Positions 22,167 to 45,068 of a stretch of DNA of 64,000 nt are shown one piece after another. The DNA lies in assembly GCF_005144885.1 (NCBI RefSeq), contig NZ_CP039690.1, forward strand, positions 2,183,001 to 2,247,000. The letters run 5' to 3'. This stretch comes from Phreatobacter stygius (GTDB lineage Bacteria; Pseudomonadota; Alphaproteobacteria; Rhizobiales; Phreatobacteraceae). The notes under the pieces are model-generated. The model had not been told where the DNA came from and did no database searches. It worked only from the letters and a program-made list of their open reading frames with translations. Made by a program: the position numbers and the translations under genes. Position 1 is the stretch's first letter. Each line of letters opens with the position of its first letter.

Positions 22167-22168
22167 CG

Positions 22169-26428: not shown

Positions 26429-26766
26429 GGCCAGCGCATCAACTGGAGGGTGGGAGCGCGCCGGATGGCGCGACAGCTTTCGCTCCAAGGCTGCCCGATC
26501 TTATCCGGCAGCCTCGTTCGGCCCTATCAGTCGCAAATTCAAAACCAATGCAAACTCAATGATTTATAGCGATTCAAAAGAAGCGCACGCGGCCTCGGTT
26601 GCGGATCGAATTCACCTTGCTTTTGAAGGCGGAACCACATGCGGCAGGCCGGCCGCACAGTCCATGATTTTATGCTCATGTGGCGTCACGGTCACAGACA
26701 CCGCGCCGTTGCAGCCGCATTCGGGCGGCCACCGGATCGGCCGACGGCGGATCCGGGGCGTCGCGC
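26429..26766. other. 338-bp gap upstream of the ECF sigma gene
   Basis: No convincing gene on either strand. The region separates the sigma gene from the end of the M24 gene, both on the minus strand. It holds a markedly AT-rich patch at about 26533-26582 that is the natural place for the sigma-gene promoter and an iron-responsive (Fur or Irr) site, but no sequence there is close enough to a known box to name. Confidence 0.4.
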
Positions 26767-27981
26767 TCACACCGGCAAGACGTGCAATCCCGCCGGGAAA
26801 TGCTGCATCGGCTCGGCACCGGTCTCGGTGACCAGCAGAAGGTGGCCGTTCTGGACACCGGCGCGGTTGTCGCGGGTGATGACGTTCGGTTGCACGACGA
26901 TCATCATGCCTGCGTCGAGTTTGAAATCCGGATCCCAGCCGGCCGCCGGCCGGCTTGCCGTGCCGAGCACCGGCGCCAGATAGCCGCCGCCATAACCGTG
27001 GATGAGGTCGTCGATGATGGTGTGGCCGGCCGCCTCGATGACCGCCGAGGCGGCGACCAGGTCGCCAGCCCGGACGCCGGGCTTGACCAGCCTGACGATG
27101 GCATCAAAGGCCGCCTCGGACACCGCGTGCAGCTCGCGATAAAGCGCATTCGGTTCTTCGCCCAATGTGAAGGTGCGCAGCACCTGGCCGGCATGATCCC
27201 AGAACTGCGCGCTGATTTCGGTGACCAGAACGTCGCCCTTTTGCAGCCTGCGGGTGGAGGGGAATTGCATCGGCACCGGCACCGCGGGCGCCGCCATCGG
27301 CGTCGTCAGGAAATAGTGGATCGAATTGATCGCACCGAAAGGCTGGTAGGGCGCTTCGACCAGGAGCCCGAGATCGCGCTCGCTCAGGCCAGGCCTGGCA
27401 CCCTCGGCAAGCCCGGCAATGCCGAGATCGGTCAGCGCCGCGCCGAGCCGGAACCAGTGGAGCTCCTCCGCGGTCTTGATCAGGCGCAGCTTGCCATAGG
27501 CGGCATTGAGGTCGACGAGCCGCGAGGCGGCCGCCCGCAACCGGTCGTGCTGGCCAAGGCCGAGCGAACCGATCAGGCCGATCCGCGGCCGGCCGGGGAG
27601 CATGGTGTCCAGGGCAGCCAGCGCACGGCCGAGCCCGGATGCCTCGCCCCACTCGACCTCGGTCTCCACCGCGAGACGACGGGCCAGCGGGACATGATTG
27701 TAGTGCTGGATGAACAGGCGCTGCGGGCGGCCCGGCACGACCAGGGTCACCGCCTCCTGCGTCACCGGCCATCCGGTCAGCCAATAGGTGGTGGTCCCGC
27801 CGCGCATCGCCTGGGCGACGATCACCGCGTCGAGTTCGTGCGCGGCACAGAGATCGGCGATGCGCTGGCGCCGGGACGTCATCTCGGCCGTCGAAAACCG
27901 CGGGAACTCCGCCTCCAGCAGATTGGCGAATTCCGTCCTGATGCGACGGGTCAAGGCATCGACGGATGGCAGTGGCTGCAT
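26767..27981 (-). CDS. Creatinase-fold M24 protein without metal ligands
   Basis: This 404-residue protein has the two-domain M24 (aminopeptidase P/creatinase) layout. The pita-bread domain starts near residue 170. All five metal-ligand positions are altered: LVTEISAQFWDHAGQVLRTF (first Asp is Glu, second Asp is Gln), HGYGGGYLAP (ligand His is Gly), MMIVVQPNV (Glu is Gln) and VQNGHLLLVTETG (Glu is Gln). It cannot be an ordinary dinuclear metallopeptidase and could be a metal-free C-N hydrolase in the manner of creatinase. The ATG at 27981 has GGGAGA upstream. It follows the amidohydrolase gene by 38 bases. Confidence 0.82.
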   Translation of the reverse strand: MQPLPSVDALTRRIRTEFANLLEAEFPRFSTAEMTSRRQRIADLCAAHELDAVIVAQAMRGGTTTYWLTGWPVTQEAVTLVVPGRPQRLFIQHYNHVPLARRLAVETEVEWGEASGLGRALAALDTMLPGRPRIGLIGSLGLGQHDRLRAAASRLVDLNAAYGKLRLIKTAEELHWFRLGAALTDLGIAGLAEGARPGLSERDLGLLVEAPYQPFGAINSIHYFLTTPMAAPAVPVPMQFPSTRRLQKGDVLVTEISAQFWDHAGQVLRTFTLGEEPNALYRELHAVSEAAFDAIVRLVKPGVRAGDLVAASAVIEAAGHTIIDDLIHGYGGGYLAPVLGTASRPAAGWDPDFKLDAGMMIVVQPNVITRDNRAGVQNGHLLLVTETGAEPMQHFPAGLHVLPV

Positions 27982-28019: not shown

Positions 28020-29438
28020 TCAGGCCGGGCTGCGCCAGGCCGGCGCGAGGCGGCCGGCAAGGCCAGCCTTTTCGATGATCTCACGTGAGACGGCGCCGGC
28101 TTCGCGGATGACCTCGCCATGGCCCGGCCCGTTGGCGAAGCGGCCGTCCCGATAGACGATCCGACCATCGATCATGACGAGCTTCGCGTCGGTTCCCTTG
28201 GCCGCCGCGGCAAAGGTCGAGAGCGGCCGGTGCAGCACGCCGATATGCGGCCGGTGAAGATCGAAGATCACCAGGTCGGCACGCTTGCCGGCTTCGAGCG
28301 AACCGATCTCGTCGGCCATGCCAAGCGCGCGCGCCGCATTGATCGTTGCCATTTCGATGGTCCGCTCCACCGGCATGCGGGTCGGATCGAGGTGGCGGAC
28401 ATGCTGCATCAGCGTGCAGGCTTTCATCTGCTCGACCATGTCATTGGTGTAGTCGACCATCGGTCCGTCGGTGCCGAGCGCCGTGTTGACGCCCTTGGCC
28501 TGGGCGGTGACGAAGGGCCCGATGCCGCCGCCGCGCATGGCTTCGCTGGTTGGCGTATAGACGAGGTGCGCGCCGACATGGGCCATCTGGTCGAGGTCGA
28601 GATCGGTGCAGTGAATGCCGTGGATGAGCAACCAGCTTTCGTCGAGGACCCCGAGGCTCATCAGGTAGCGCACATCGGTGCGGCCGGTTTCGCGCAGGTG
28701 TTTCAGGAAGCCTTTTTCCAACGAGAACGTGCCCCCGGCGATATGCGAGCTGATCTTCAGCCCATGCCGGCGCGCCAGTTGATGGCCATTGGTGATCAGC
28801 TCTTCCGTGCTCATGCCGGAGGCGGTCCAATGCGCATTGGCCTCGATCACCATGGCCATGCCGACGAGGCCGCCGGCCGCGCCCTGCCAGCGCCGGCATT
28901 CCTCGTCGAAGGCGGCAATGGATTCGTCCAAGCTCAAGGGGTGGGCGGCAAAGCGCGGCGTCCGGCAGCGCAGTTCCTTGGCGAAGACCTGGCGCAGGCC
29001 GAGCTCGGCCTGCGGCGCGATGGTCGCGCGCACCAGCTCCGGCGTGGTCACCGTCACCGAATGGTTCAACGACGTGGTCGTGCCGGTCGCCAGCATTTCC
29101 ATGCCGCAGAGATAGCTGGCAAGGCGCATCGCCTCGGGCGTCAGGTGCGGCACCAGCTTGAACACCAGATCGGTGATCCAGTCTTCCAGCAGCATGCCGT
29201 CGGCCAGACCCTTGAACAGCGTGTACCAATGGTGCTGGTGCGTATTGATCAGGCCGGGCAGGACGAGATTGCCGCCGGCATCGATGATCTCGTCGAAGCC
29301 GCCCGAGCGGTCATCGGCCGTCTCCGCGCCGACCGCCGCGATCCGCCCGTTCTCGATGACCAGGCTGCCCCCGCCATGGACATCCCGGCGCTCGTTGACC
29401 GTCACCACATAGCCGTTCTTGATCAGAATGCGCGACAT
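28020..29438 (-). CDS. Amidohydrolase, ATZ/TRZ (TrzN/8-oxoguanine deaminase-like)
   Basis: This 472-residue metal-dependent hydrolase has the TIM-barrel signature. Metal ligands are the HxH in PGLINTHQHHWY (67, 69), the His of KISSHIAGG, the His of LLIHGIHC and the Asp of LGTDGPM. The C-terminal strand IGSLEAGKRADLVIFDLHRP completes the composite domain. Family members remove amino, chloro or alkylthio groups from N-heterocycles such as s-triazines and purines. The ATG at 29438 has GAGG upstream. It is the first gene of a pair with the creatinase-fold protein and is divergent from a MarR gene. Confidence 0.88.
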   Translation of the reverse strand: MSRILIKNGYVVTVNERRDVHGGGSLVIENGRIAAVGAETADDRSGGFDEIIDAGGNLVLPGLINTHQHHWYTLFKGLADGMLLEDWITDLVFKLVPHLTPEAMRLASYLCGMEMLATGTTTSLNHSVTVTTPELVRATIAPQAELGLRQVFAKELRCRTPRFAAHPLSLDESIAAFDEECRRWQGAAGGLVGMAMVIEANAHWTASGMSTEELITNGHQLARRHGLKISSHIAGGTFSLEKGFLKHLRETGRTDVRYLMSLGVLDESWLLIHGIHCTDLDLDQMAHVGAHLVYTPTSEAMRGGGIGPFVTAQAKGVNTALGTDGPMVDYTNDMVEQMKACTLMQHVRHLDPTRMPVERTIEMATINAARALGMADEIGSLEAGKRADLVIFDLHRPHIGVLHRPLSTFAAAAKGTDAKLVMIDGRIVYRDGRFANGPGHGEVIREAGAVSREIIEKAGLAGRLAPAWRSPA

Positions 29439-29687: not shown

Positions 29688-29707
29688 TTATCTTGACGTC
29701 AAGATAA
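29688..29707. promoter_or_regulatory. Perfect 20-bp palindrome, likely MarR operator
   Basis: The sequence TTATCTTGACGTCAAGATAA is a perfect inverted repeat 22 bases before the MarR-family start codon, in the gap shared with the divergent amidohydrolase gene. MarR dimers bind palindromes of this size, often next to their own gene. Binding here could control both directions. The assignment to this regulator is inferred from position. Confidence 0.65.
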
Positions 29708-29729
29708 ATTCAAAGGACGGGCGAGAATA

Positions 29730-30260
29730 GTGGCGAAGGTCCCAAAGCCGACGGATTCGGTGCAGGCGCTGGTCGACGGCTGGGAGCGGCAGCGACCGGA
29801 TCTGGCCCCCTGGCCGCTGGAAATTTTCGGTCGCCTCCAGCGCATTTCGGCGCAGTTGCTGCGCAGCTCCGAGGCCTTGATCGCGCCGCTCGACCTGACC
29901 TGGGAGGCGTTCAGCCTGATCGTGACGCTCCGGCGGTCCGGTCCGCCGTTCGAGCTACGGCCAACCGACATTCTGCGCGATTCGCTTTTGAGTTCCGGCG
30001 CGGTCACCAACCGCATCGACAAGGTGGAAAGGCTCGGGCTGGTCGAACGCGTTCCGGACGCCGGCGACCGGCGCAGCCTGGTCGTCCGGCTGACCCCGAA
30101 GGGCCGGCTGGTGGCGGACGAAGCCATTGCCCGCCAATTCGGCGGCCTGGCGGAAATCCTCTCGGCGCTTGCCGATGACGAGCGCGAACAACTGATCCGC
30201 CTGCTCGCCAAACTGCTTGGCGCCCTGGAGCAACGGGACCAGGTCAAGACGAAAGCCTGA
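29730..30260 (+). CDS. MarR-family transcriptional regulator
   Basis: This 176-residue protein has the MarR winged helix: LTWEAFSLIVTLRRSGPPFE, LRPTDILRDSLLSSGAVTNR, IDKVERLGLVERVPDAGDRR and the wing with SLVVRLTPKG. The DxRS-type wing motif (AGDRRSL) is classic. The start is GTG at 29730, with an A/G-rich stretch upstream. It is divergent from the amidohydrolase/creatinase-fold pair and has a perfect palindrome in its leader, so it probably represses itself and that pair. Confidence 0.9.
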   Translation: MAKVPKPTDSVQALVDGWERQRPDLAPWPLEIFGRLQRISAQLLRSSEALIAPLDLTWEAFSLIVTLRRSGPPFELRPTDILRDSLLSSGAVTNRIDKVERLGLVERVPDAGDRRSLVVRLTPKGRLVADEAIARQFGGLAEILSALADDEREQLIRLLAKLLGALEQRDQVKTKA

Positions 30261-30482: not shown

Positions 30483-30609
30483 ATAACTTTGCCGAACCAG
30501 CGGCCAAGACCACCGAGATGCCCGGCAAGCCCGATCCGACGGCCGGCCGGCGTGCCAATGATCGCGCCAAGCGACGCAGCCAATGATGCATCCAACCATG
30601 GGGAACAGC

Positions 30610-31947
30610 ATGTCCACGATCAGTGTCGGAGCGCGGCTCGACCGCCTGCCGGTATCCAATGTCCATCGCAAGATATTCACCCTCGTCGCCATCGGCATGT
30701 TCTTCGAGGGATTCGACATCTATCTGGCCGCCAGCGTTCTCGGCTCGACATTGCGGAGCAATTTCTCGACGATCGCCCAGAATGGTCTGTTCATCTCGGC
30801 GACCTTCGTCGGCATGATGCTCGGCGCTTTCCTCGCCGGTTTCCTCGGCGACCGTTATGGCCGCAAGCGCACCTATCAATGGAATCTGGTTGTGTTCGGG
30901 GTGGCGGCGATCCTGTCGGCCTTCGCCCCCAACATGGAGACGCTGATCGGCCTGCGTTTCCTGATGGGCCTTGGCCTCGGCGCCGAGGTCGTCGTCGGCT
31001 ATTCGGTGATCACCGAATTCGTGCCGCCGAGCGTGCGCGGCCGCTGGTCCGGCATGATCGCGACCATCGTCACCGCCGGCTTGCCGGCCTCCGCGCTGAT
31101 GGCCTGGCTGCTGATCCCGTCTTATGGCTGGCGCGTCATGTTCATCATCGGCGGCTGCGGCGCGCTGATCGCCTGGGCGCTGCGCAACGGCCTGCCGGAA
31201 TCGCCGCGCTGGCTCGAATCGGTCGGACGCCAGGCGGAGGCCGAAGCGATCATCGCCGACATCGAACGGCAGGCATCGAACGGCCAGCCCTTGCCGCCGC
31301 CCCAGCCGACGCCTGCGCCGCTCGCCGGCGCGCGCGACCTGAGCGCCCTGGCCCGGTCACCCTTCCTCGCCCGCATGGTCGTCGGCTGCGTCTCGCTGAT
31401 CGTCGTCAACACGCTGATCTACGGTTTCATTTCCTGGCTGCCGACCTTTTTCATCAGCCAGGGCCAGGACGTCACGCGCAGCTTCGGCTTCTCGCTGCTG
31501 ATGGCCCTCGGCGGCCCCATCGGCTCGACCATCGGGGCCTTTGCCGCCGACCCGATCGGCCGCAAGAAGACGATCATCGGAGCGGCGGCCCTCGCCATCA
31601 TTCTCGCCGCGCTGTTTCCGCTGGCCTCCGATCCGCTGCTGGTGGCAGCGCTTGGCTTCCTGCTCACCGTGCCGATCTACATTCTCGTCGCGCTGCTGTT
31701 CGGCATCTATATTCCCGAACTGTTCCCGACCGAGTTGAGGCTGCGCGCCGTCGGCATCTGCAACACCGCCGGCCGCAGCGCCAGCATCATCGTGCCGCTG
31801 GTCGTCGGCCCGTTGTTCCTGGCCTATGGCGTCACCGGCGTGCTGACCCTGATGGGCGCGGCGCTGGCGATCATGATCGTGGTGGTCGCAACGCTTGGCA
31901 TCGAGCCGGAGCGCAAGGGCCTGGAGGCGGTCACCAACCTCGCCTGA
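30610..31947 (+). CDS. MFS transporter, AAHS/sugar-porter-like
   Basis: This 445-residue protein has 12 predicted membrane segments. It carries the MFS signature loops GFLGDRYGRKRTYQ between helices 2 and 3 and DPIGRKKTI between helices 8 and 9, and LRFLMGLGLGAEVVVGY in helix 4. FFEGFDIYLAASVLG in helix 1 resembles the aromatic acid:H+ symporter group. The ATG at 30610 has GGGGA six bases upstream. It is preceded by two LacI-type operators, so it is the second importer of the LacI regulon beside the ABC system. Confidence 0.88.
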   Translation: MSTISVGARLDRLPVSNVHRKIFTLVAIGMFFEGFDIYLAASVLGSTLRSNFSTIAQNGLFISATFVGMMLGAFLAGFLGDRYGRKRTYQWNLVVFGVAAILSAFAPNMETLIGLRFLMGLGLGAEVVVGYSVITEFVPPSVRGRWSGMIATIVTAGLPASALMAWLLIPSYGWRVMFIIGGCGALIAWALRNGLPESPRWLESVGRQAEAEAIIADIERQASNGQPLPPPQPTPAPLAGARDLSALARSPFLARMVVGCVSLIVVNTLIYGFISWLPTFFISQGQDVTRSFGFSLLMALGGPIGSTIGAFAADPIGRKKTIIGAAALAIILAALFPLASDPLLVAALGFLLTVPIYILVALLFGIYIPELFPTELRLRAVGICNTAGRSASIIVPLVVGPLFLAYGVTGVLTLMGAALAIMIVVVATLGIEPERKGLEAVTNLA

Positions 31948-32787: not shown

Positions 32788-32867
32788 TGACCCGTGCAAC
32801 CCTCGGTCGGGCGGTCATCGCCACACCGGCAACGCGCGATCTTGCAAAGTGAATGCAGAGGCAGCGC

Positions 32868-33911
32868 ATGACGAGCTCCCCCATCGAACCACGGTCCCGG
32901 GTGAACCTGCGTCGCCTCGCCGATGAGGTTGGTGTCCACCCGTCCACCGTCTCACGCGCGCTCGACCCGACCAAGCGGCACCTGGTCGCCGACGACGTCG
33001 CCGACAGGATCACCACGGCGGCCCGGCAGTTGGGCTATCGCCCCAATCCGGTCGCGGCGAGCCTGCGCACCCGCCGCTCGACCCTGGTCGGCGTACTGGT
33101 CCCCGACATCACCAACCCGGTGTTCTCGCCGATCATTTCCGGCATTGCCGAAATCCTCGGCGCCGAGGGCTATTCGACCATCGTCGCCGATGCCGGCACC
33201 GAATTTGGTCCGCGCATGGCGCTGATCGACGAATTGATCGCGCGCCGGGTCGACGGCCTGGTGCTGGCGACCGTCAGCCGCGACGACCCGATGCTGGAAC
33301 ATTGCCTGGCCGAAGGTGTCCATGTCGTGCTGGTCAACCGGGCCGACGATTCCGATCGCGCCTCTTCCGTTGTGTCGGACGATGTCGCCGGCATGCGGGT
33401 GGCGGTCGAGCACCTCTACCAGCTTGGCCATCGCGTCATCGGCCATCTCGCCGGCCCGTCGACCTTGTCGACAGGCCACCTTCGCCGCGTCGGCTTCGAG
33501 CAGGCCATGCAGGATCATGGCCTCGCCGTTCCCCCGGCAGCCATCGTCGAGGCGGCAAGCTACGACCGCGACGAGGGCGAGCGTGCCACGGCCAGGTTGT
33601 TGCAGGCCTATCCCGGTCTGACCGCCATTGCCGCGGCCAACGACCTGCTGGCGCTCGGCGCCTACAAGGCGCTTGCCGCACGTGGCCTGCGCTGCCCCGC
33701 CGATGTCTCGGTGGTTGGCCATAACGACATGCCGCTGGTCGACATGGTCGAGCCTCCGCTGACCACCATCCGCATTGGCCCGCGCGACATGGGACGCGAT
33801 GCCGCACGTCTTCTGCTCGAGCGGATGACCGGTTCGGCTTTGCCGATCCGGCGCATCGTGCTGGCGCCGGATCTGGTTTTTCGGGCCTCGACGGCGGCCC
33901 CGCGCGGCTGA
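32868..33911 (+). CDS. LacI-family transcriptional regulator
   Basis: This 347-residue regulator has the LacI headpiece (VNLRRLADEVGVHPSTVSRA, then LDPTKRHLVADDVADRI) and hinge (YRPNPVAASLRTRRS). The effector domain has LVGVLVPDITNPVFSPIISG and CPADVSVVGHNDMP. The start at 32868 has GAGG six bases upstream; an ATG at 32853 is the alternative. It lies in the middle of five matching operator-like sequences (30292, 30463, 32776, 33992, 41090), one before each transcription unit of the surrounding catabolic genes, which identifies it as their repressor. Confidence 0.93.
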   Translation: MTSSPIEPRSRVNLRRLADEVGVHPSTVSRALDPTKRHLVADDVADRITTAARQLGYRPNPVAASLRTRRSTLVGVLVPDITNPVFSPIISGIAEILGAEGYSTIVADAGTEFGPRMALIDELIARRVDGLVLATVSRDDPMLEHCLAEGVHVVLVNRADDSDRASSVVSDDVAGMRVAVEHLYQLGHRVIGHLAGPSTLSTGHLRRVGFEQAMQDHGLAVPPAAIVEAASYDRDEGERATARLLQAYPGLTAIAAANDLLALGAYKALAARGLRCPADVSVVGHNDMPLVDMVEPPLTTIRIGPRDMGRDAARLLLERMTGSALPIRRIVLAPDLVFRASTAAPRG

Positions 33912-34003: not shown

Positions 34004-34076
34004 GGTTGCGCATTCGGGCACCTGAGAGGCGTTGCCTGGTGAACAGCGACGACAGAACCGCGAACGGAGGGGCGCT

Positions 34077-35135
34077 ATGACTGACCTGACTCGACGTCGA
34101 TTTGTGGCCGGATCGGCCGCGGCAGCCAGCCTGCTGCAGAGCCCCCAGGTCTTTGCCCAGTCGAACTTCCTGGAGCCGGCGCGCATCCGCATGGGCTTCG
34201 CGCCCTATATTTCGGCCGGGCCTTATCTGATCGCCGAGGCCAAGGGCTATTTCAAGAAGCTCAATATCGAGATCGTGCCGTCGAGCCATGTCGACGGCAG
34301 CCTGTCCATGCCGGCACTGGCTGCCGGCGAGCTGGATATCACCGGTGCCACCTTGAGCGCCGGCCTGTTCAACCTGATGGCCAAGGGCGCCGGCTTGCGC
34401 ATGTTCTTCGAGCGTGGGCGCGAAGCGCCCGGCTGGGGCTCGAACTCGATCATGGTCTCGAACGAATTGTGGGAGAAGGGCTTCCGCGGGCCCGACGGCT
34501 ACAAGCAGGCCAAGGGCGCCACCATCGGTATTTCCTCGCGTGGCAGTGTCGCGCACTATCTGCACACCATGGGCCTCGAACGGGCCGGCATGAAGGCCGA
34601 CGACCTCGAATGGTCCTGGGGCATGAGCCCCAATGTCAGCCTGCCGCTGATGAAGCAGAACCGCATCGGCATCATCAACATGCCGCTGCCCGGCGCCTAT
34701 GCCGCGCAGAAACAGGGCATCGGCAAGGTCGCCACCTGGAGCGACGAGCTGGCGCCGGACTTTGTCCTGGCCTGCTCGGTCGCCAGCGAAAAATTCCTGC
34801 GCGAAAAGCATTCCGCGGCCGTGCGCTTCTCGATGGCGATCATGCAGGGCAATGCCGATTACATGGAGGCTGCCAAGAGCGGCAATCCGGAGGTCCTGAA
34901 AATCCTCGCCGACGGCACCGGCCTGACACCCCAGGTGATCGACGAGACCCGGCCGCGCTGGACCTTCATGACCATCGACGGCACGCCGAACATGGCCTCG
35001 ATCATCGCGCAGCAGAAATTCTGGCGCGAACGCACCGACCTGCTCGCCCGCAGCGTGCCGGACAATCAGCTGTTCGACGATCGCGCCATCAAGGAAGCCA
35101 AGCAGCGGATGACCGAGAAGAACCCGTTCATCTGA
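34077..35135 (+). CDS. NMT1/SsuA-type ABC solute-binding protein
   Basis: This 352-residue periplasmic protein has a Tat signal with a triple arginine (TRRRFVAGSAAAASLLQS) and an NMT1/SsuA/ThiY-like fold. RIRMGFAPYISAGPYLIAEA, FKKLNIEIVP and ALAAGELDITGATLS are the family landmarks. Members carry aminopyrimidines, sulfonates, nitrate or phthalate-type ligands. The ATG at 34077 has GGAGG upstream. It is the first gene of the LacI-controlled ABC-amidohydrolase operon, whose downstream enzymes suggest an amino- or otherwise substituted ring compound as ligand. Confidence 0.88.
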   Translation: MTDLTRRRFVAGSAAAASLLQSPQVFAQSNFLEPARIRMGFAPYISAGPYLIAEAKGYFKKLNIEIVPSSHVDGSLSMPALAAGELDITGATLSAGLFNLMAKGAGLRMFFERGREAPGWGSNSIMVSNELWEKGFRGPDGYKQAKGATIGISSRGSVAHYLHTMGLERAGMKADDLEWSWGMSPNVSLPLMKQNRIGIINMPLPGAYAAQKQGIGKVATWSDELAPDFVLACSVASEKFLREKHSAAVRFSMAIMQGNADYMEAAKSGNPEVLKILADGTGLTPQVIDETRPRWTFMTIDGTPNMASIIAQQKFWRERTDLLARSVPDNQLFDDRAIKEAKQRMTEKNPFI

Positions 35136-35187
35136 TCGCGGTTCGGGCGGATCGATACGCAAAGCGCAGGGAGGCGCTTGTCAGACC

Positions 35188-35988
35188 ATGCAATTCGAGG
35201 CGATTTCGATTGAAGGACTGTCGCACCGGTTTCTGAGCCGGACGCGACCGCCGACCACCGCGCTGACCGACGTGTCCTGCGTCTTTCCGGCCGGCAAGGT
35301 GACCGCCATCGTCGGCCCCAGCGGCTGCGGCAAGTCGACCTTGCTGCTGATCCTGCGCGGCCTGGTGGAAGCCAGCGCCGGCAAGGTGCGGTTCCTCTAC
35401 GGCGACGGTTCGGGCCAGCTGACGGCCGGTGATGCCCCGCGCATGGCCACCGTCTGGCAGTCGTTCAATCTCCTGCCCTGGCGTTCGGTCATCGACAACG
35501 TCGCCTTCGGCCTCGAACTGGCCGGCGTATCGCTCGCCGAACGCCAAGCCAAGGCGGCGGAAGCGATCAAGGCGGTCGAGCTCGCCGGCTTCGAGAAACA
35601 TTATCCGGGCCAGCTCTCCGGTGGCATGAAGCAGCGCGTCGGGCTCGCCCGCGGCCTCGTCCAGTCGCCCGATATCCTGTTCCTCGACGAACCCTTTGGC
35701 GCGCTCGATGCCCAGACCAGGCTCTATCTGCAGGAACAGCTGTCGACCCTGGTCGAGGCGAGCGCCAAGACGGTGATCCTGATCACCCACTCGATCGAGG
35801 AAGCGATCTTCCTCGCCGACCACGTGATCGTCATGACCGCGCGCCCGGGCCGTGTCGCCCGCAGCCTCGACATCGACCTGCCGCGGCCGCGCGGCATCGA
35901 TGTCCAGAACGACAAACGCTTCGGCGAATATTTCTCCGAGATCTATGGGCTGCTGCGCGACGAAGTCCGCAAGGCAATGTTGAACTGA
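35188..35988 (+). CDS. ABC importer ATPase, SsuB/TauB-type
   Basis: This 266-residue ATPase has Walker [11 protein letters not shown]-loop [10 protein letters not shown], signature [15 protein letters not shown], Walker [15 protein letters not shown] and switch His in LITHSIEEA. The pattern is that of nitrate/sulfonate/aminopyrimidine importers, matching the binding protein upstream and the permease 11 bases downstream. Confidence 0.93.
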
Positions 35989-35999
35989 GGGCTGCCACG

Positions 36000-36836
36000 A
36001 TGTCGGATATCAACCGCTCGGCGCTGGCCGATCCCAAAGCCATCGTCGAGACCAAACCCGCGCCCGATTTCAAGGATGAAAGGCTGCGCGACGACACCTG
36101 GTTCTACGGCCCGGTGGCGATGGCGCTGTTCCTGGTGTTCTGGGAAGTCTCGATCCCCCTGTTCGACGTGCCGGAGATTTTCCTGCCGAGGCCGTCGCTG
36201 GTCATCGTCACGCTCTACGAGCTGTTTGCCACCAAGGGGCTCGCTTACGACCTCGTGCTGACGCTCTACCGCATCTTCGCCGGCTTCTTCCTGGCCGCCG
36301 TGGTCGGTGTCGGCCTTGGCCTCTTGATGGGCATGTCGCGGCGCATCTATGCCATCTGCGACATCTTCGTCGCAGCCCTCTATCCCGTGCCGAAGATCGC
36401 CCTGGTGCCGCTGCTGGTCATCTGGCTCGGCAGCGGCAATGCCTTCCAGATCGCGCTCTCGGCGCTCGGTTGCATCTTCCCGATCCTGGTCAACACCATC
36501 ATCGGCGTGCGCCAATGCGACGAAGGCCTGATCCTGGCGGCCCGCGACCTCGGCGCCAGCGCCGTGCAGATCCAGCGCAAGGTGGTGTTGCCGGCGGCCG
36601 TGCCGGCGATCTTCGGCGGCCTGCGCCTGGCGCTCGGCATCTCCATCATCCTGGTGGTCGCCGCGGAAATGCAGACCGCCCGCTACGGCCTCGGCGCCAA
36701 GCTGCAGCTTGCCGGCCAGATCCTCGAGACCGGCCAGGTCTTCGCCATCCTGCTGCTGCTCGCCGTGCTCGGCATCCTGCTGACCAAGGGCCAGCAGCAT
36801 CTCGACGGCAAGATCAACCGCTGGCGCACCCGCTGA
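36000..36836 (+). CDS. ABC importer permease, SsuC/TauC-type
   Basis: This 278-residue inner-membrane protein has about six membrane segments after a cytoplasmic N-terminus. The ATPase-docking region is around LILAARDLGASAVQIQRKVV followed by LPAAVPAIFGGLRLALGIS. The segment RIFAGFFLAAVVGVGLGLLM begins the core. GAGG precedes the ATG. It completes a three-part importer with the two preceding genes and is followed 40 bases later by the first amidohydrolase. Confidence 0.92.
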   Translation: MSDINRSALADPKAIVETKPAPDFKDERLRDDTWFYGPVAMALFLVFWEVSIPLFDVPEIFLPRPSLVIVTLYELFATKGLAYDLVLTLYRIFAGFFLAAVVGVGLGLLMGMSRRIYAICDIFVAALYPVPKIALVPLLVIWLGSGNAFQIALSALGCIFPILVNTIIGVRQCDEGLILAARDLGASAVQIQRKVVLPAAVPAIFGGLRLALGISIILVVAAEMQTARYGLGAKLQLAGQILETGQVFAILLLLAVLGILLTKGQQHLDGKINRWRTR

Positions 36837-36876: not shown

Positions 36877-38250
36877 ATGAAACGGACGCTGATCGAGTGT
36901 GGCTGGCTGGTCACCATGGACGAGGCCATCGGCGATCATCGCAATGCCCGCGTGCTGGTCGAGGGCAGCCGCATCCTTGCCGCCGGCAAGGGCATCGAGG
37001 CCGAGGCCGACGAGGTCATCGATGCCCGCGACAAGATCGTCATGCCCGGGCTGATCGATGCCCATGTCCACACCTGGCAGACCGGGCTTCGCGCCATCGG
37101 CTCGGAATGGCTCGGCCCCGACTACCACGCCAATATCCACGCCAATCTGGCGACCCGCTACGGTCCCGACGACAACTACATTGGCAACCTGATCGGCGCG
37201 CTCAGCAAGATCGATAGTGGCACCACCACCATTCTCGACTGGTGCCACAACCTGACCTCGCTGCACCATGCCGAGCGTTCGGTCGACGGTCTCGAGGAAT
37301 CGGGCATTCGCGCGGTCTTCGCCCATGGCACGGCCAAGCCGCCGACCAAACCGGGCGAGCTGCCCTATACCCACGTGCCGCATCCGCGCGACCGGATCGA
37401 AGCCCTGCGCAACGGCCGCTTCGCCTCCGACGACCGGCTGGTGACGCTCGCCATGGCGGTCCTCGGGCCGCATTGGGGCACTTACGAGGTGGCCGAGCAG
37501 GACCTCAGGCTTGCCCGCGAACTGAACCTGCTGTCGAGCTCGCACGCCACCCGCAAGATCCCCGACCAGGTCGCGCCGGGCGGCTACAAGAGGCTGGTCG
37601 AGGCCGGCCTGATCGGCCCGGATCACAATCTGGTCCACGGCAATTATATCGAGGATGACGAGCTGAAGGCCCTGGTCGAGGCCGGCGCCTCGGTGACCGG
37701 CACCGTGCTGGTCGAACTGCACGGCCATGCCGCCGAGCCGGTCACGCTTCGCGTGCGCAATTTCGGCGGCATGCCCTCGATCGGCATCGATGTCGAACCG
37801 ATCGTGACAGGCGAGATGTTCCGCGAGATGCAGGCGGCGCTGCTGCACGCCCGCTGGGCGTCGCTGCGCGACAATGCCGCGGCCGGCAAGCCGCCGTTCA
37901 AGACCATCCCGATCAAGTCGCGCGAGGCCCTGGCCTGGGCGACCATAGGCAATGCCCGGGCGATCGGCCTGGAAGACCAGATCGGCTCGCTGACCCCCGG
38001 CAAGAAGGCCGACATCGTCATGCTGCGCGCCAATGACCTGAACCTGTTCCCGGTCCACGATCCCTTGCTGTCGATCGTCGAACAGGCCAGCGCCGGCAAT
38101 GTCGACACCGTCATGATCGACGGCGTCATCCGCAAACAGGCCGGGCGCCGGGTCTTCCCGGACGACGTGCTCGCCAAGCGCAAGGTCGAGCTGGTGGCCT
38201 CCGTCGAGCGTGTCATGCGCGACGGGTCGTTCACCATGAAAGCGGCCTGA
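36877..38250 (+). CDS. Amidohydrolase I (tandem paralog, ATZ/TRZ-like)
   Basis: This 457-residue cytosolic TIM-barrel hydrolase keeps all expected metal ligands: HxH at 63/65 (LIDAHVHTWQ), His223 (SSSHATRK), His254 (NLVHGNY) and Asp305 (SIGIDVEP). The strand-8 motif IGIDVEP differs from the usual LGTDG/LGSDG of atrazine and guanine hydrolases, and a DWCHN segment (121-125) is shared by all three paralogs. These features mark a separate subfamily. It should hydrolyse an amino or other leaving group from a ring, or open a cyclic amide. It is the fourth gene of the LacI-controlled operon. Confidence 0.87.
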   Translation: MKRTLIECGWLVTMDEAIGDHRNARVLVEGSRILAAGKGIEAEADEVIDARDKIVMPGLIDAHVHTWQTGLRAIGSEWLGPDYHANIHANLATRYGPDDNYIGNLIGALSKIDSGTTTILDWCHNLTSLHHAERSVDGLEESGIRAVFAHGTAKPPTKPGELPYTHVPHPRDRIEALRNGRFASDDRLVTLAMAVLGPHWGTYEVAEQDLRLARELNLLSSSHATRKIPDQVAPGGYKRLVEAGLIGPDHNLVHGNYIEDDELKALVEAGASVTGTVLVELHGHAAEPVTLRVRNFGGMPSIGIDVEPIVTGEMFREMQAALLHARWASLRDNAAAGKPPFKTIPIKSREALAWATIGNARAIGLEDQIGSLTPGKKADIVMLRANDLNLFPVHDPLLSIVEQASAGNVDTVMIDGVIRKQAGRRVFPDDVLAKRKVELVASVERVMRDGSFTMKAA

Positions 38251-38261
38251 GAGCATTCACC

Positions 38262-39638
38262 ATGACCAAGACACTGATCAAATGCGGCTGGATCGTCTCG
38301 ATGGATCCGGCCATCGGCGACCTGCGCCAGGGCGAGATCCTGATCGACAATGACCGCATTGCCGCCGTCGGCCGCGACCTCCAGGCGGTCGCCGACGAGG
38401 TGGTCGACGCTTCCGACATGATCGCCATGCCGGGCATGGTGAACGCCCATCTGCACACCTGGCAGACCGGCTTGCGCGCCATTGGCTGCGAATGGGCGCA
38501 TGGCGAATATTTCAAATATCTGCATGGCGGCATGGCCACGCGTTACGGTCCGGAGGACAATTACCTCGGCAACCTGATCGGCGCGCTGAACCAGATCGAC
38601 GGCGGCGTCACCACGCTCAACGACTATTGCCACAACATCACCTCGACCGCCCAGGCCGAACGTTCGGTCGATGCGCTGGAGGATTCCGGCATCCGCGCCG
38701 TGTTCACCCTCGGCGCCGGCAAGCTGCCGCCCGAACGCGAGGCGATCGAACCGTTCGAGAAGCGGATCAATCCGCGCGAACGGGTCGAGAAATTCCGCAA
38801 GGGCCGGCTTGCCAGCGACGACCGCCGGGTCACCATGGCGCTGGGTGTCGCAGGCCCGCACTGGGCCGAGATGGAGCCGACCCGGATCAATCTCCGGCTC
38901 GCCCGCGAGCTCGGCCTGCGCTCGTCGACCCATGCCACCAAGCGCCCCGAACTGGCGGTCGATCCGCGCGGCTATTTCCCGCTCCTCGACGAAGGCCTGA
39001 TCGGCCACGACCACACCGTCGTTCACGGCAATTATCTCGGCGACGAGGAATTGAAGCGCCTGGTCGATGCCGGCGTCACCGCCTGCGCCACGGTGCAGAC
39101 CGAGCTGCGCGGTTATGCCGGCGATCCGCTGGTCGGCCGGGTCAGGGCGCTCGGCGCCATGCCCTCGCTCGGTGTCGATGTCGAGCCGCGTGTCTCCGGC
39201 GAAATGTTCCGCGAGATGCAGATCGCCCTGCTCTATGCCCTCTCCGTCTGCCAGCGCGAGAATGCCCGTGACAAGAAGCCGCCGTTCCAGGTGGTGCCGA
39301 TCCGGTCACGCGAGGCGCTCGCCTGGGCCACCATCGGCGGCGCCGAGGCTTTAGGTCTCGGCAGCCAGATCGGCACGCTGACCCCGAAAAAGAAGGCCGA
39401 CATCGTGCTGCTGCGCGGCACCGACCTGAACCTCTTCCCGGTCCATGATCCGATCCTGTCGATCGTCGAACAGGCCAATGCCGGCAATGTCGATACCGTC
39501 TTCATCGACGGTATCGTCCAGAAGCGCGGCGGCAAGCTGACCTTCTCCGAAGCCGTGCGCCGCCAGCGCATGACCGAGCTTGCAAGCTCGGTCGAGCGGA
39601 TCATGGGCGAAGCCGGCTACGTTCCGTTCGGACGCTGA
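38262..39638 (+). CDS. Amidohydrolase II (tandem paralog)
   Basis: This 458-residue paralog of the preceding gene lies 11 bases downstream. The ligands are conserved (His63, His65, His224, His255, Asp306), with SSTHATKR and SLGVDVEP as counterpart motifs, and DYCHN at 121-125. Extended blocks such as TRYGPEDNYLGNLIGALNQI are nearly identical to gene I, while the loop around residues 150-180 differs strongly (KLPPEREAIEPFEKRINPRE), which suggests a different substrate. Three active members side by side argue for successive hydrolyses, not redundancy. Confidence 0.87.
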   Translation: MTKTLIKCGWIVSMDPAIGDLRQGEILIDNDRIAAVGRDLQAVADEVVDASDMIAMPGMVNAHLHTWQTGLRAIGCEWAHGEYFKYLHGGMATRYGPEDNYLGNLIGALNQIDGGVTTLNDYCHNITSTAQAERSVDALEDSGIRAVFTLGAGKLPPEREAIEPFEKRINPRERVEKFRKGRLASDDRRVTMALGVAGPHWAEMEPTRINLRLARELGLRSSTHATKRPELAVDPRGYFPLLDEGLIGHDHTVVHGNYLGDEELKRLVDAGVTACATVQTELRGYAGDPLVGRVRALGAMPSLGVDVEPRVSGEMFREMQIALLYALSVCQRENARDKKPPFQVVPIRSREALAWATIGGAEALGLGSQIGTLTPKKKADIVLLRGTDLNLFPVHDPILSIVEQANAGNVDTVFIDGIVQKRGGKLTFSEAVRRQRMTELASSVERIMGEAGYVPFGR

Positions 39639-39643
39639 CCGTC

Positions 39644-41005
39644 ATGGCCCGAACGCTCGTCCGTTGCGGCTGGCTGGTCACCATGGATCACGCGCTCGGC
39701 GATCTCCGCCGGGCCGAGATGCTGCTCGACGGCGACCGCATCGAAGCGATCGGCCACGATCTCGGCGCGACCGTCGACGCCACCATCGACGCCTCGGACA
39801 TGATCGTCTTGCCCGGGCTGATCAACATGCACCTGCATACCTTCCAGGCAGGCTTGCGCGCGATCGGCTCGGAATGGCTGGCGCCCGACTATTTCCGTCA
39901 CTTCTACGGTGACATCGCCACACGGTTCGGCCCGGAGGACAATTACCTCGGCACGCTGTTCGGCGCGCTGAACCAGCTCGATTGCGGCGTCACCACGCTG
40001 TTCGACTATTGCCATAACATCCGCTCGCTGGAGCAGGCCGAGCGTTCGGTCGACGGCCTGACCGATTCCGGCATCCGCGCCGTCTTCGTGCATGGCGATG
40101 GCCTGCGCGAGCCGGCGGCACCCGGCAAGCTGCCCCAGCGCCGGCTGCATCCGCGCGACCGGGTCCAGGCGCTGCAGAGGAGCCGTTTCGCCCACGATGG
40201 CCGGATAACCCTGGCGCTCGGCATTGCCGGACCGCACTGGGCCGATTGGGAGGCTTCGCTCGCCAATGTCAGGCTTGCCCGCGACCTCGGGCTGATCGCC
40301 TCGTCCCATGTCACCAAGGCCCATCGCGACGCTGCCGTGCCTGATGGCTACGACCGGCTGGCGGCCATGGGCCTGCTCGGTCCCGATCACAATCTGGTCC
40401 ATTGCAACCTGTTGACGCATGACGAGGTCGGCCGGCTCCTGGATGCCGGCTGCTCGATCACCTCGACCAACATGAACGAGCTGCACGACTACCCGCACGG
40501 CTCGGCCCTGACGACGGTGCTCGACCATGGCGGCCTGCCCTCGATCGGCATTGATGTCGAACCCATGGTGTCGGGCGACATGTGGCGCGAAATGCAGATG
40601 GCGCTGCTGTTCGCGCGCAACCGGCTCATTCGCGCGCGGGCCGCGGCCGGGCAAGGCCCGGCGATGATCGGCTCGCGCGAGGCGCTCCGCTGGGCGACCG
40701 TCGGCGGCGCCCAGGCGCTCGGCATGGCCGACAGAATCGGTTCGCTCAAGCCCGGCCACAAGGCCGATCTGGTCATGTTGCGCGCCGGCGACCTCAATCT
40801 CTTTCCCGTCCATGACCCGGTCTTCTCGATCGTCGAGCAGGCTCATTCCGGCAATGTCGACACGGTCATCGTCGATGGCATCGTCCGCAAGCAGCGCGGC
40901 CGCCTCATCTTCGACCAGGCCAGGCGCCAGGCGCTCGGCGAGCAGCTGGTCGCATCCGCCGGTCGTCTGATGGCGGAAGCAGGCTACCGCCACGCCTTTG
41001 TCTAG
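39644..41005 (+). CDS. Amidohydrolase III (tandem paralog)
   Basis: This 453-residue third paralog starts five bases after gene II. Ligands are His63, His65 (LINMHLHTFQ), His222 (SSHVTKAH), His253 (LVHCNLL) and Asp304 (SIGIDVEP); DYCHN is at 121-125. It has diverged more from I and II than they have from each other in places, with the strand-6 His followed by CNLL in place of GNY. It is the last gene of this operon; the next gene has its own operator. Function as for gene I, with substrate unknown. Confidence 0.87.
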   Translation: MARTLVRCGWLVTMDHALGDLRRAEMLLDGDRIEAIGHDLGATVDATIDASDMIVLPGLINMHLHTFQAGLRAIGSEWLAPDYFRHFYGDIATRFGPEDNYLGTLFGALNQLDCGVTTLFDYCHNIRSLEQAERSVDGLTDSGIRAVFVHGDGLREPAAPGKLPQRRLHPRDRVQALQRSRFAHDGRITLALGIAGPHWADWEASLANVRLARDLGLIASSHVTKAHRDAAVPDGYDRLAAMGLLGPDHNLVHCNLLTHDEVGRLLDAGCSITSTNMNELHDYPHGSALTTVLDHGGLPSIGIDVEPMVSGDMWREMQMALLFARNRLIRARAAAGQGPAMIGSREALRWATVGGAQALGMADRIGSLKPGHKADLVMLRAGDLNLFPVHDPVFSIVEQAHSGNVDTVIVDGIVRKQRGRLIFDQARRQALGEQLVASAGRLMAEAGYRHAFV

Positions 41006-41089
41006 GCTCGGATCCGGGCCGTCGTCCCGCCTCCGGTCGAATCGCGGTCAGCGCCGGCGCGACCTTCCGGGGAATGGCGGATCTTGACG

Positions 41090-41107
41090 ATTGCAAACGA
41101 TTGCAAT
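41090..41107. promoter_or_regulatory. LacI-type operator, copy E
   Basis: ATTGCAAACGATTGCAAT is an 18-bp palindrome with one mismatched pair near the centre and the core GCAAACGATTGC, one base from the consensus. It follows directly after TTGACG (41084-41089), a likely -35 element, and would fill the spacer to a weak -10 (TAGGGA, 41107-41112). It controls the dioxygenase operon, whose first gene starts 25 bases later. Confidence 0.65.
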
Positions 41108-41131
41108 AGGGAGAGTTCAGGGAGTGAAACG

Positions 41132-41992
41132 ATGATCATTGAACGCCAGGAACAGGTGACCGACGCCGTTCTCGCGGCAATGGCCAAGACGAGCGACCCT
41201 CGGCTTGCCGAGATCATGGCCGCGCTGGTCAAGCACCTGCATGCCTTCGCCCGCGAGGTCAGGCTGACCGAGCCGGAATGGGAAAAGGCCATCGAATTCG
41301 TCGTCGGCCTTGGCCAGTTGACCAACGATACCCACAACGAAGCCGTGCTGGCATCCGACGCGATCGGCTTTTCGACGCTCGTCTGTCTGCTCAACAATGG
41401 CAATGCCGGCAATACCGAGGCCGCCGCCGCCCTGCTCGGGCCGTTCTGGCGGATGAACTCGCCGCACATGGAGAACGGCGGCTCGATCATCCGCTCGGAG
41501 ACGCCGGGCGAGGAGCTTGTCGCCGCCTGCCTGGTTCGCGACGCCGCCGGCAATCCGATCGCCGGCGCCGAGGTCGACGTCTGGCAGGCCTCGCCGGTCG
41601 GCATGTACGAGAACCAGGACGAGACCCAGGCCGACATGAACCTGCGCGGCAAGTTCACCACTGACGCGGATGGCGCCTTCTCGTTCCGCTCGGTCAAGCC
41701 CGCCGGTTATCCGGTGCCGACCCATGGTGTGGTCGGCAAGCTGCTGGCCGCCCAGAACCGCCATCCGTTCCGGCCGGCGCACATTCATTTCCTGATCTAC
41801 AAACCGGGCTTCAAGACGCTGATCACCCAGATCTTCGTCGAGGGTGACCAATATCTGGAGACCGATGTGGTGTTCGGCGTGACCAAGGCGCTGGTCGGCG
41901 GCATTGAAAAGGGCGGCAATGGCTACACCCTCCGCTATAGTTTCGTGATGGAGCCCGGCGAAGCGGTTCTGCCGGTTCCTCCGATCAAGTGA
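41132..41992 (+). CDS. Intradiol ring-cleavage dioxygenase, hydroxyquinol type
   Basis: This 286-residue non-haem Fe(III) enzyme has the helical N-terminal dimerisation domain (~1-100) and the catalytic beta-sandwich. The four iron ligands are present: Tyr159 (PVGMYENQ), Tyr193 (PAGYPVPT), His217 and His219 (RPAHIHF). LLGPFWRMNSP before the catalytic domain and the VDVWQASPVGMYENQD stretch fit the catechol/hydroxyquinol 1,2-dioxygenase group. It cleaves an aromatic diol or triol between the hydroxyls to a cis,cis-muconate or maleylacetate. First gene of the second LacI-controlled operon; GGGAG lies upstream of the ATG. Confidence 0.9.
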   Translation: MIIERQEQVTDAVLAAMAKTSDPRLAEIMAALVKHLHAFAREVRLTEPEWEKAIEFVVGLGQLTNDTHNEAVLASDAIGFSTLVCLLNNGNAGNTEAAAALLGPFWRMNSPHMENGGSIIRSETPGEELVAACLVRDAAGNPIAGAEVDVWQASPVGMYENQDETQADMNLRGKFTTDADGAFSFRSVKPAGYPVPTHGVVGKLLAAQNRHPFRPAHIHFLIYKPGFKTLITQIFVEGDQYLETDVVFGVTKALVGGIEKGGNGYTLRYSFVMEPGEAVLPVPPIK

Positions 41993-41999
41993 GGATGTC

Positions 42000-42752
42000 A
42001 TGACCCTGGGAACTGCCCTGAAGGACAAGGTCGCCGTCGTGCTCGGCGGGTCCGGCGGCATCGGCGCCGCCACCGCTTACCAATTTGCCGCCGAAGGCGC
42101 GACGGTGGTGGTCGTCTACCGCTCCGACAAGGCCGCCGCCGACGTGATCGTCGCAAGCCTGCCGGGCGCCGGCCATCTCGCCGCTGCCGCAACGGTTGAG
42201 GATACCGCCTCGCTGACCGCGCTCGCCGCCCATGTCGAGGAACGGCTCGGCCGCGCCGATATCCTGGTCAACTCGGCCGGCTTCACCAAGCCGGTGCCGG
42301 CGGGCGATCTGGATGCCCTGGACGACGCCTTCATCGACCGGATGTTCCAGGTCAACTGGCGCGGCCAGTTCGCCGCGATCCGTGCCTTTCGTCGCCTGCT
42401 CGAGGCGGGCGGCGGCGGCCTGATCGTCAATGTCTCGTCGATCGCCGCCTTGAACGGCGTCGGTTCCAACCTCGCTTACGCGGCGGTCAAGGCCGGCATG
42501 GACACGCTGACCAAGTCGCTGGCCCGGGCGCTGGCGCCGGAAATCCGCGTGATGAGCGTCTCACCCGGCGTGGTCGACACCGATTTCGTTCCTGGCCGCG
42601 GTGCCGAACAGCTTGCCAAGATCGCCCCGACCATCCCGCTGAAACGGGTCGCGACCCCCGACGATGTCGGCCGCGCCATTGTCGCCTGCGCCACCCATCT
42701 CACCTATTCGACCGGTTCGCTGATCATCGTCGACGGCGGCCGGGCACTCTGA
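42000..42752 (+). CDS. Short-chain dehydrogenase/reductase
   Basis: A 250-residue classical SDR with cofactor loop GGSGGIGAA, NSAG motif (ILVNSAGFTKP), catalytic Ser in NVSSIAALNG and Tyr-x-x-x-Lys in LAYAAVKAG. The C-terminal VDGG motif is present. GAGG sits five bases before the ATG, seven bases after the dioxygenase stop. In this operon it could oxidise a ring diol precursor or reduce a keto intermediate; the sequence does not decide. Confidence 0.9.
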   Translation: MTLGTALKDKVAVVLGGSGGIGAATAYQFAAEGATVVVVYRSDKAAADVIVASLPGAGHLAAAATVEDTASLTALAAHVEERLGRADILVNSAGFTKPVPAGDLDALDDAFIDRMFQVNWRGQFAAIRAFRRLLEAGGGGLIVNVSSIAALNGVGSNLAYAAVKAGMDTLTKSLARALAPEIRVMSVSPGVVDTDFVPGRGAEQLAKIAPTIPLKRVATPDDVGRAIVACATHLTYSTGSLIIVDGGRAL

Positions 42753-42777
42753 GCTTCTCACGTTCAAGGACAAACTC

Positions 42778-43674
42778 ATGCGCCCGATGCGGAACAAGGT
42801 CGTCATCACCTGCGCTGTGACGGGCAATCTGACCACGCCCGATCAGACGCCGCATCTTCCGATCACGCCGGAGGAGATCGCCGATGCCTGCCTCGGCGCA
42901 GCCGAAGCCGGTGCCGCCGTCACCCATATCCATGTCCGCGAGCCGGGCACCGGCAAGCCGTCCATGGCGCTCGAATATTACCAGGACGTGGTGGCCCGGA
43001 TCCGCGCGCGGAACCAGAAACTGATCCTCAACATCACCACCGGTCCCGGGGGCCGCTTCGTGCCCTCCGAGGACGATCCGAAGGTCGCCGCGCCCGGCAC
43101 CACGCTGCTCGCCCCGGAAAAGCGCGTCGAACATATCGCCGCGTTGAAGCCCGACATTTGCACGCTCGACCTCAACACGATGAATTCCGGCGGCCAGGTG
43201 GTCATCAACACGCCCGGCAATGTCCGGCGCATGGCCAAGGTCATCCGAGCGGCCGGCGTCAAACCGGAGATCGAACTGTTCGATTCCGGCGATATCGCCC
43301 TGATGCACGATCTCCTGAAGGACGGCTCGATTTCGGGGCCGTGCATCGCCTCCTTCGTGCTCGGCGTGAAATATGGCTTCCAACCCGGGCCCGAGACGGT
43401 GATCTATGCCCGCGATCTCTTGCCTGCCGACACCGAGTTCACGGTGATCGGCACCGGCCGATCGAGCTTTCCGATGGTGGCGCAGTCGGTGCTTGCCGGC
43501 GGCCACGCCCGCACCGGGCTCGAGGACGCGGTCTATCTCGACCGCGGCACGCTCGCGCCCTCCAACGCCGCCATGGTCGACAAGGCCCGACGCATCATCG
43601 AGGAGCTCGGCGTGCAGATCGCCAATCCCGACGAAGCCCGCGACATCCTGCACCTGCCGTCGCGCGCGGCCTGA
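42778..43674 (+). CDS. Beta-keto acid cleavage enzyme (BKACE, DUF849)
   Basis: This 298-residue TIM-barrel zinc enzyme of the Kce/BKACE family combines a beta-keto acid with acetyl-CoA to give acetoacetate and a new acyl-CoA. Landmarks are VVITCAVTGNLTTPDQTPHL, PITPEEIA, the zinc His pair in VTHIHVREPGTG (50, 52) and LNITTGPGG. Some family members accept 3-oxoadipate, which would fit directly after ring cleavage and reduction. That would replace the usual 3-oxoadipate CoA-transferase and thiolase, neither of which is in the window. Confidence 0.88.
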   Translation: MRPMRNKVVITCAVTGNLTTPDQTPHLPITPEEIADACLGAAEAGAAVTHIHVREPGTGKPSMALEYYQDVVARIRARNQKLILNITTGPGGRFVPSEDDPKVAAPGTTLLAPEKRVEHIAALKPDICTLDLNTMNSGGQVVINTPGNVRRMAKVIRAAGVKPEIELFDSGDIALMHDLLKDGSISGPCIASFVLGVKYGFQPGPETVIYARDLLPADTEFTVIGTGRSSFPMVAQSVLAGGHARTGLEDAVYLDRGTLAPSNAAMVDKARRIIEELGVQIANPDEARDILHLPSRAA

Positions 43675-43687
43675 TCCGGAGCACGCC

Positions 43688-44716: not shown

Positions 44717-44720
44717 AGCC

Positions 44721-45068
44721 ATGCATGTCAACCGCTTCGCCGATCTGAAGCCTTACGACGCCCCCGGCCACCACGGCATGCACATGCTGCGCATGCAGGG
44801 CCGCGAGGCCGGTCCCGCCGACATGATGTGGCTCGGCGTGTCGCAGATCCTGCCCGGCGGCAGCATCGACCTGTCGAGTTCGCCGGACGAGAAGTTCTAT
44901 GTCGTCCTGGAAGGCGACCTGACGGTCGAGACCGAAAGCGGTTCGGTCAGGCTCGGTGTCTGGGACAGCTGCCGCATCGCGCCGCACGAAAAACGTGCGC
45001 TCAAGAACCCGACCAATCGAACGGTCGTCGTGCTGCTGGCCATGCCGCTGCCCAAGCCCCAACCCTGA
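44721..45068 (+). CDS. Small cupin protein with degenerate metal site
   Basis: This 115-residue single-domain beta-barrel starts four bases after the reductase stop. The first cupin motif is SIDLSSSPDEKFYVVLEGDL: the usual HxH is missing and only the Glu is kept. The second motif has a His in IAPHEKRALKN. With most metal ligands gone it may be a binding or isomerising accessory rather than a dioxygenase. Its place in the operon suggests it acts on an unstable pathway intermediate. Confidence 0.75.
   Translation: MHVNRFADLKPYDAPGHHGMHMLRMQGREAGPADMMWLGVSQILPGGSIDLSSSPDEKFYVVLEGDLTVETESGSVRLGVWDSCRIAPHEKRALKNPTNRTVVVLLAMPLPKPQP

Follow-up and report, generated by a model that had tools for sequence, protein, structure and literature searches.

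An M24-fold protein of Phreatobacter stygius with all five metal ligands replaced: a candidate metal-free partner of an AtzA-like amidohydrolase

Results

A 64,000-nucleotide stretch of DNA from Phreatobacter stygius (hereafter, the window) encodes a protein of the M24 family in which all five canonical metal ligands are replaced by residues that are almost fixed in a family spanning bacteria and haloarchaea. We see about an even chance that it is an active, metal-independent enzyme on the M24 fold, working with an AtzA-like amidohydrolase on an imported nitrogen-containing small molecule by C-N hydrolysis. Five lines of evidence support this reading: the predicted fold, the loss of the ligands, the fixed replacements, a separate clade, and a conserved gene linkage.

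A pita-bread protein with a replaced metal site

The gene lies exactly where the initial annotation had placed it, on the minus strand.

26767..27981, minus strand: M24-like gene, 404 aa, all five metal ligands replaced (ORF, Pfam, AlphaFold, and fold matches)

The open reading frame starts with an ATG preceded by GGGAGA, and its product matches Peptidase_M24 (6e-18) and Creatinase_N (3e-7) in Pfam, while NCBIfam returned general matches only, which were weak and far under cut-off. The AlphaFold model, produced from a 63-row alignment, has a mean pLDDT of 95.4 and a pTM of 0.93. When compared with known structures using Foldseek and VIA-align, it displays a pita-bread fold over its full length, which agrees with the earlier view that this fold is well kept. 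The model is close to Xaa-Pro dipeptidase 5cde (Z 36.0), ectoine hydrolase EutD 6yo9 (Z 36.0), and creatinase 1chm (Z 35.4), with prolidases at Z 33-36. Since these values are tied, the modeled fold alone cannot choose among Xaa-Pro dipeptidase, EutD, and creatinase.

The metal ligands of prolidase are D209, D220, H284, E313, and E327. Using Pyrococcus furiosus prolidase 1pv9 as the reference in a sequence alignment, with numbering counted from the printed chain, we mapped these residues to E255, Q266, G332, Q364, and G379, respectively. The strands of the AlphaFold model (E250-260, E267-273, E359-363, and E379-384) are consistent with this mapping. The corresponding codons, with their conservation in homologues, are as follows.

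27217..27219, minus strand: E255, replacing the first Asp ligand, in the column of DoeA/EutD Glu255 (invariant, 96/96)
27184..27186, minus strand: Q266, replacing the second Asp ligand (invariant, 96/96)
26998..27000, minus strand: H328, four residues before the lost His ligand and corresponding to His280 of P. furiosus prolidase (invariant, 96/96)
26986..26988, minus strand: G332, replacing the His ligand (88/96)
26890..26892, minus strand: Q364, replacing the first Glu ligand (93/96, a count inflated because most loci were gathered by two peptide patterns, one of which contains Q364)
26845..26847, minus strand: G379, replacing the second Glu ligand (invariant, 96/96)

The claim that every canonical ligand has been replaced therefore holds with 1pv9 as the reference. 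Four of the five replacements originally named are correct, while the fifth, Q377, lies two columns ahead of the correct one, in which G379 is aligned with the metal-binding Glu; Q377 itself is aligned with a conserved Arg of prolidases (GGVRIED vs AGVQNGH). In addition, the catalytic His192 of 1pv9 corresponds to M238, whose neighbor Q239 is found in 92/96 homologues. The protein thus resembles prolidase, Xaa-Pro dipeptidase, and aminopeptidase P (M24B; 1pv9 and 5cde) in its fold, its N-terminal domain, and an Arg three residues past the second ligand (R269), but differs from them in all five metal ligands and the catalytic His. Of the M24 metallopeptidase features that we sought in it, neither the five D, D, H, E, E ligands nor the catalytic His is present. 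A normal metallopeptidase with ligands that are merely shifted, which the initial annotation had named as the outcome that would overturn its reading, is ruled out since the sequence alignments and the model strands give the same columns. With all five ligands replaced, a metallopeptidase is very unlikely, in favor of the metal-free reading.

Replacement residues are fixed across the family

We gathered 96 distinct homologues from whole genomes, named genome records, and plasmids, which span Alpha- and Betaproteobacteria, Actinomycetota, and haloarchaea; no viral relatives were found. E255, Q266, H328, and G379 are invariant, and E-Q-G-Q-G is read at the five ligand columns in 88 of the homologues. 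E255, Q266, G332, and G379 are absent from both of the peptide patterns used for collecting loci. The canonical ligand is kept, in order, in 0, 0, 0, 3, and 0 of the 96 sequences. The five columns have a mean entropy of 0.16 bits, against 1.77 for the protein (P about 5e-6 with random five-column sets). Other residues are nearly as constant, including Q377 (93/96), R269 (94/96), D324 (93/96), and D325 (90/96). Such fixed replacements are, at the level of sequence, the pattern expected from a working site with new residues rather than from decay. Three members retain a Glu in the Q364 column, and their near-basal branching within the clade suggests that the metal site may have been remodeled stepwise.

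This conservation also bears on whether a metal might still be bound. A single metal could be held by E255, Glu being able to ligate metals, together with noncanonical residues such as the invariant H328 and the highly conserved D324/D325. However, a strong ligand occupies only one of the five positions and two of them are Gly, and we regard such a metalloenzyme as improbable.

A clade apart from creatinase and ectoine hydrolase

A maximum-likelihood tree, obtained by a quick method, included EutD, creatinase, and other M24 proteins, with distant outgroups on long branches; in this tree, the family forms its own clade with an SH-aLRT support of 99. Within that clade, the window protein belongs to a six-member subclade (support 99) with the proteins of loci L048, L049, L050, L052, and L053. 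The L051 protein (Rhodoplanes, 54% identity) was left out of the tree, and its gene neighborhood matches that of the subclade. Creatinases make up a separate clade.

Creatinase is a metal-free C-N hydrolase on the M24 fold, and it had been put forward as the model for this protein. A creatinase-like or guanidino hydrolase with the catalytic residues of creatinase would be in keeping with creatinase 1chm being the top PDB match by sequence (1e-15) and among the best by fold. However, in the alignment with creatinase that had been proposed as a check, L268 and Q364 take the places of Glu262 and Glu358, and His232 falls on either M238 or Q239, according to the alignment used; two further positions, His324 and His376, correspond to G332 and G379. 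The two proteins share a fold but differ at all five catalytic positions and in clade, so that creatinase is not a suitable model, and we give a hydrolase using these residues hardly any credence. Creatinase identity as such is excluded on residues, with 0/5 catalytic positions kept.

Ectoine hydrolase DoeA/EutD (PDB 6twj, 6twk, and 6yo9; TIGR02993 and NF038259), which is absent from the initial annotation, appears from residue comparison to be a closer mechanistic parallel. DoeA belongs to M24 and resembles creatinase (PMC3187862). In hhalign, E255 pairs with a Glu of EutD that is residue 262 in the 406-aa chain and 255 in the 399-aa chain (6twk). This Glu255 of EutD reportedly forms a covalent intermediate with ectoine. 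The likeness extends to the pita-bread fold (Z about 36), to the replacement of the first Asp ligand by Glu at the same column with the remaining ligands lost too, and to a gene set for substrate import and catabolism that includes a second hydrolase. The differences are nevertheless substantial. EutD is only about 18% identical to the window protein and falls in a separate clade; it has a Pro at the column of Q266, a non-His residue at H328, and a non-Gln residue at Q364, while the conserved His of its APH motif corresponds to M238 (in hhalign and prolidase alignments). Its partner is EutE, whereas that of the window protein is AtzA-like. The NF038259 score of the M24-like protein is 26.1 bits, where the cut-off is 575; a search of the P. 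stygius genome for TIGR02993 gave no match at 1e-120; and no eutE was found beside the M24-like gene, the adjoining genes being the amidohydrolase and ECF-sigma/FecR-like genes. Orthology with EutD is thus excluded by family-model score, tree, and residues.

Linkage with an AtzA-like amidohydrolase

The M24-like gene is preceded by an amidohydrolase gene and, beyond it, by a divergent regulator.

28020..29438, minus strand: AtzA/TRZ-like amidohydrolase, 38 bp upstream of the M24-like gene (ORF, domain, and PDB matches)
29688..29707, no strand: perfect palindrome of 20 bp, TTATCTTGACGTCAAGATAA, in the intergenic region of the divergent amidohydrolase and MarR genes (predicted operator)
29730..30260, plus strand: divergent MarR-family regulator (orthologues with 58-64% identity in L048, L051, and L052)

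For the amidohydrolase, whose nearest PDB match is atrazine chlorohydrolase 4v1x (3e-44), we preferred the ATG of MSRILIKNG as the start over an upstream GTG. Orthologues with 70-72% identity are found near the M24-like gene in L048, L050, L051, L052, and L053, but not at L049. In L048, an ABC ATPase and a permease are followed by the amidohydrolase (71%) and the M24-like gene, with a 4-bp overlap, and MarR is on the opposite strand; in L050-L053, an NMT1 binding protein mostly sits between the amidohydrolase (70-72%) and the M24-like gene. The pairing noted in the initial annotation is therefore real, being kept in most of the subclade loci. In the genomes scanned (398 from the phylum and 397 from the order), the amidohydrolase was found at E<=1e-150 only in the genome of P. 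stygius, and the pair is therefore rare. In the wider family, no such amidohydrolase was found within 9 kb in 94/100 members, many of which are on short contigs.

Tight linkage to an amidohydrolase in the subclade, together with the loss of every metal ligand, would also fit a pseudo-enzyme, i.e., an M24 protein without catalytic activity whose role is to bind a ligand or to partner the amidohydrolase or the importer. Binding proteins of this kind are known among eukaryotic M24 pseudo-enzymes, e.g., Ebp1/PA2G4. Like these regulators and the N-terminal domain of SPT16, which bind proteins, the window protein has the M24 fold without a working metal site, but it differs from them in having a conserved pocket and a bacterial catabolic gene set. 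Nonpeptidase M24 proteins have been published, e.g., LmaPA2G4 (PMC3888471). Against a dead protein, few positions in the sequence are as conserved as those of the former metal site, which carry specific polar residues, the family occurs in several phyla and both prokaryotic domains, mostly without a nearby amidohydrolase, and metal-free M24 enzymes exist (creatinase and, judged by its lost ligands, EutD). Since the replaced positions are fixed and most members lack such a neighbor, we consider a pseudo-enzyme unlikely. Of the two options originally offered, a new C-N hydrolase or a pseudo-enzyme, a new metal-free hydrolase is thus the better reading.

The palindrome is probably a MarR operator; its 18-bp core has a single exact copy in the 7.35-Mb genome. 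An operator conserved in relatives is ruled out, as the palindrome is absent from the other loci and the sequence ahead of MarR in L048 resembles it only in degenerate form.

On its other side, the M24-like gene adjoins an iron-siderophore set (18412-26488) with a ferrioxamine/ferrichrome-type TonB receptor, recognized through NCBIfam, as well as ECF-sigma/FecR-like regulators and esterase-like and permease-like genes, which were read from ORFs.

The wider neighborhood is catabolic

Beyond the MarR gene, the window contains further regulatory, transport, and catabolic genes.

30583..31947, plus strand: MFS transporter of the aromatic-acid type, 56% identical to the MFS of a Rhizobium cluster (in the common catabolic set)
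32853..33911, plus strand: LacI-family regulator, 54% identical to the LacI of the Rhizobium cluster
34032..36836, plus strand: NMT1/SsuA-type ABC importer (binding protein 34032-35135, ATPase 35188-35988, permease 36000-36836)
36877..41005, plus strand: three tandem amidohydrolases of the PRK08204 type (domain matches)
41084..45068, plus strand: intradiol dioxygenase, SDR, BKACE, Zn-alcohol dehydrogenase, and cupin (order kept in Bosea and Rhizobium plasmids)

The ABC importer lies ~6 kb from the M24-like gene in the window, and related ABC genes adjoin the M24-like gene in L048 and L050-L053. A 51% relative of the LacI-family regulator directly precedes the M24-like gene in L056. In the dioxygenase block, BKACE is of the 3-keto-5-aminohexanoate cleavage type, and the nearest PDB relative of the intradiol dioxygenase is hydroxyquinol 1,2-dioxygenase. 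Counting those in the tandem, four further TRZ/ATZ-type amidohydrolases are present at 36877-41005 and 46155-47654, beside the importer and the dioxygenase block.

On a Rhizobium bangladeshense plasmid, an orthologue of the amidohydrolase paired with the M24-like gene (66%) lies within an operon that also encodes an intradiol dioxygenase, an SDR, an aldehyde dehydrogenase, BKACE, a Zn-ADH, and a cupin, with LacI and MFS close by. Eight genes of this cluster match genes at 28020-45068 in the window with 48-66% identity, and the order of the dioxygenase block is the same, with insertions. A Bosea vaviloviae plasmid has the order dioxygenase-SDR-BKACE-ADH-cupin-TctC-amidohydrolase, as in the right half of the window. 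The presence of the amidohydrolase orthologue inside the Rhizobium operon, whose counterpart is found in the window, ties the pair to an aromatic ring-cleavage pathway. No M24-like gene is present near the amidohydrolase in the R. bangladeshense stretch; the step is therefore not obligatory there or is carried out by another enzyme. The reaction of the M24-like enzyme is probably peculiar to the substrate of the window subclade.

Across 90 loci of the wider family, the genes within 5 kb of the M24-like gene include those for ABC ATPases (23 loci), TctC binding proteins (15), SDRs (13), enoyl-CoA hydratases (9), and FAD monooxygenases (8). Judged by gene content, this setting is catabolic, with apparently varied substrates. 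Genes for FrsA-like alpha/beta hydrolases are repeatedly found close to the M24-like gene (L055, L067, L104, and L119), and one is also present at L146 (13593-14645), in the Rhizobium operon that has no M24-like gene. On two haloarchaeal plasmids (L128 and L129), a related M24 gene is near an ABC importer, amidohydrolases, and an aldehyde dehydrogenase, to which L129 adds a cysteine hydrolase and an asparaginase; this is the same kind of gene set in another domain of life.

The range of neighbors, including ring-cleavage dioxygenases, FAD monooxygenases, and alpha/beta hydrolases, would be compatible with a metal-free enzyme of different chemistry, i.e., C-C, C-O, or C-S cleavage, or an isomerase or lyase, and the M24 fold does host the DMSP lyase DddP, a metalloenzyme (PMC4108388). 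However, the known metal-free M24 enzymes cleave C-N bonds and the partner here is an amidohydrolase, and we find these other chemistries distinctly unlikely.

Discussion

How might C-N hydrolysis be achieved without a metal? The substrate would be a small molecule that is taken up by the cell, contains nitrogen, and is probably cyclic or aromatic. In place of the metal site there would be a metal-free polar pocket composed of E255, Q266, Q364, Q377, and Q239, together with the invariant H328, and R269. By analogy with Glu255 of DoeA/EutD, E255 would most likely attack or activate the substrate, while the glutamines would bind its amide or carboxylate and H328 would act as acid/base. The outcome would be hydrolysis of a C-N bond, beside the amidohydrolase step, and the MarR repressor and its palindromic operator would control the local pair. 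Metal absence, activity, and residue roles are thus all put forward here as predictions, with the substrate and the bond the least certain elements. Three findings count against this proposal: the remaining active-site residues of EutD differ, the Rhizobium operon has no M24-like gene close to its amidohydrolase, and the neighborhoods of the wider family are varied.

Metal-free hydrolases on the M24 fold are already known, creatinase and EutD, the latter with its ligands likewise lost. By alignment, E-Q-G-Q-G with an invariant His is the residue set of neither, and no description of a family with this set was found in the literature that we searched. More tentatively, the homologues may form an uncharacterized family of metal-free pita-bread enzymes, in bacteria and haloarchaea, with a previously undescribed active site, which would hydrolyze, via a covalent Glu, nitrogen-containing natural compounds or pollutants whose route of degradation is unknown. 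The new active site would combine a Glu, a Gln, and a His that are invariant with Gln and Gly residues at former ligand positions.

Members of the family are labeled "M24 family metallopeptidase" or "Xaa-Pro peptidase" in databases, which their residues contradict. If active, they would join creatinase and ectoine hydrolase as a third type of metal-free enzyme with the prolidase fold, and would supply an early reaction of a catabolic pathway that rhizobial plasmids share. How a di-metal site becomes metal-free could also be tested in this family, whose basal members retain a Glu at the Q364 position.

Other M24 proteins with altered ligands were encountered. A further group (L010, L011, L013, and L016), with the signature LTLEWAG ... 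HAAMMRTI, has a Glu at the first-ligand column and has lost the other ligands; it is apart from EutD in the tree and is apparently another metal-free subfamily. Finally, two other M24 homologues with 27-32% identity are encoded in the same genome, beside another ABC ATPase/permease pair (L046, G000:C1:4921573-4926821). The arrangement is repeated in a congener (L047), and another EutD-like group with altered ligands may exist there.
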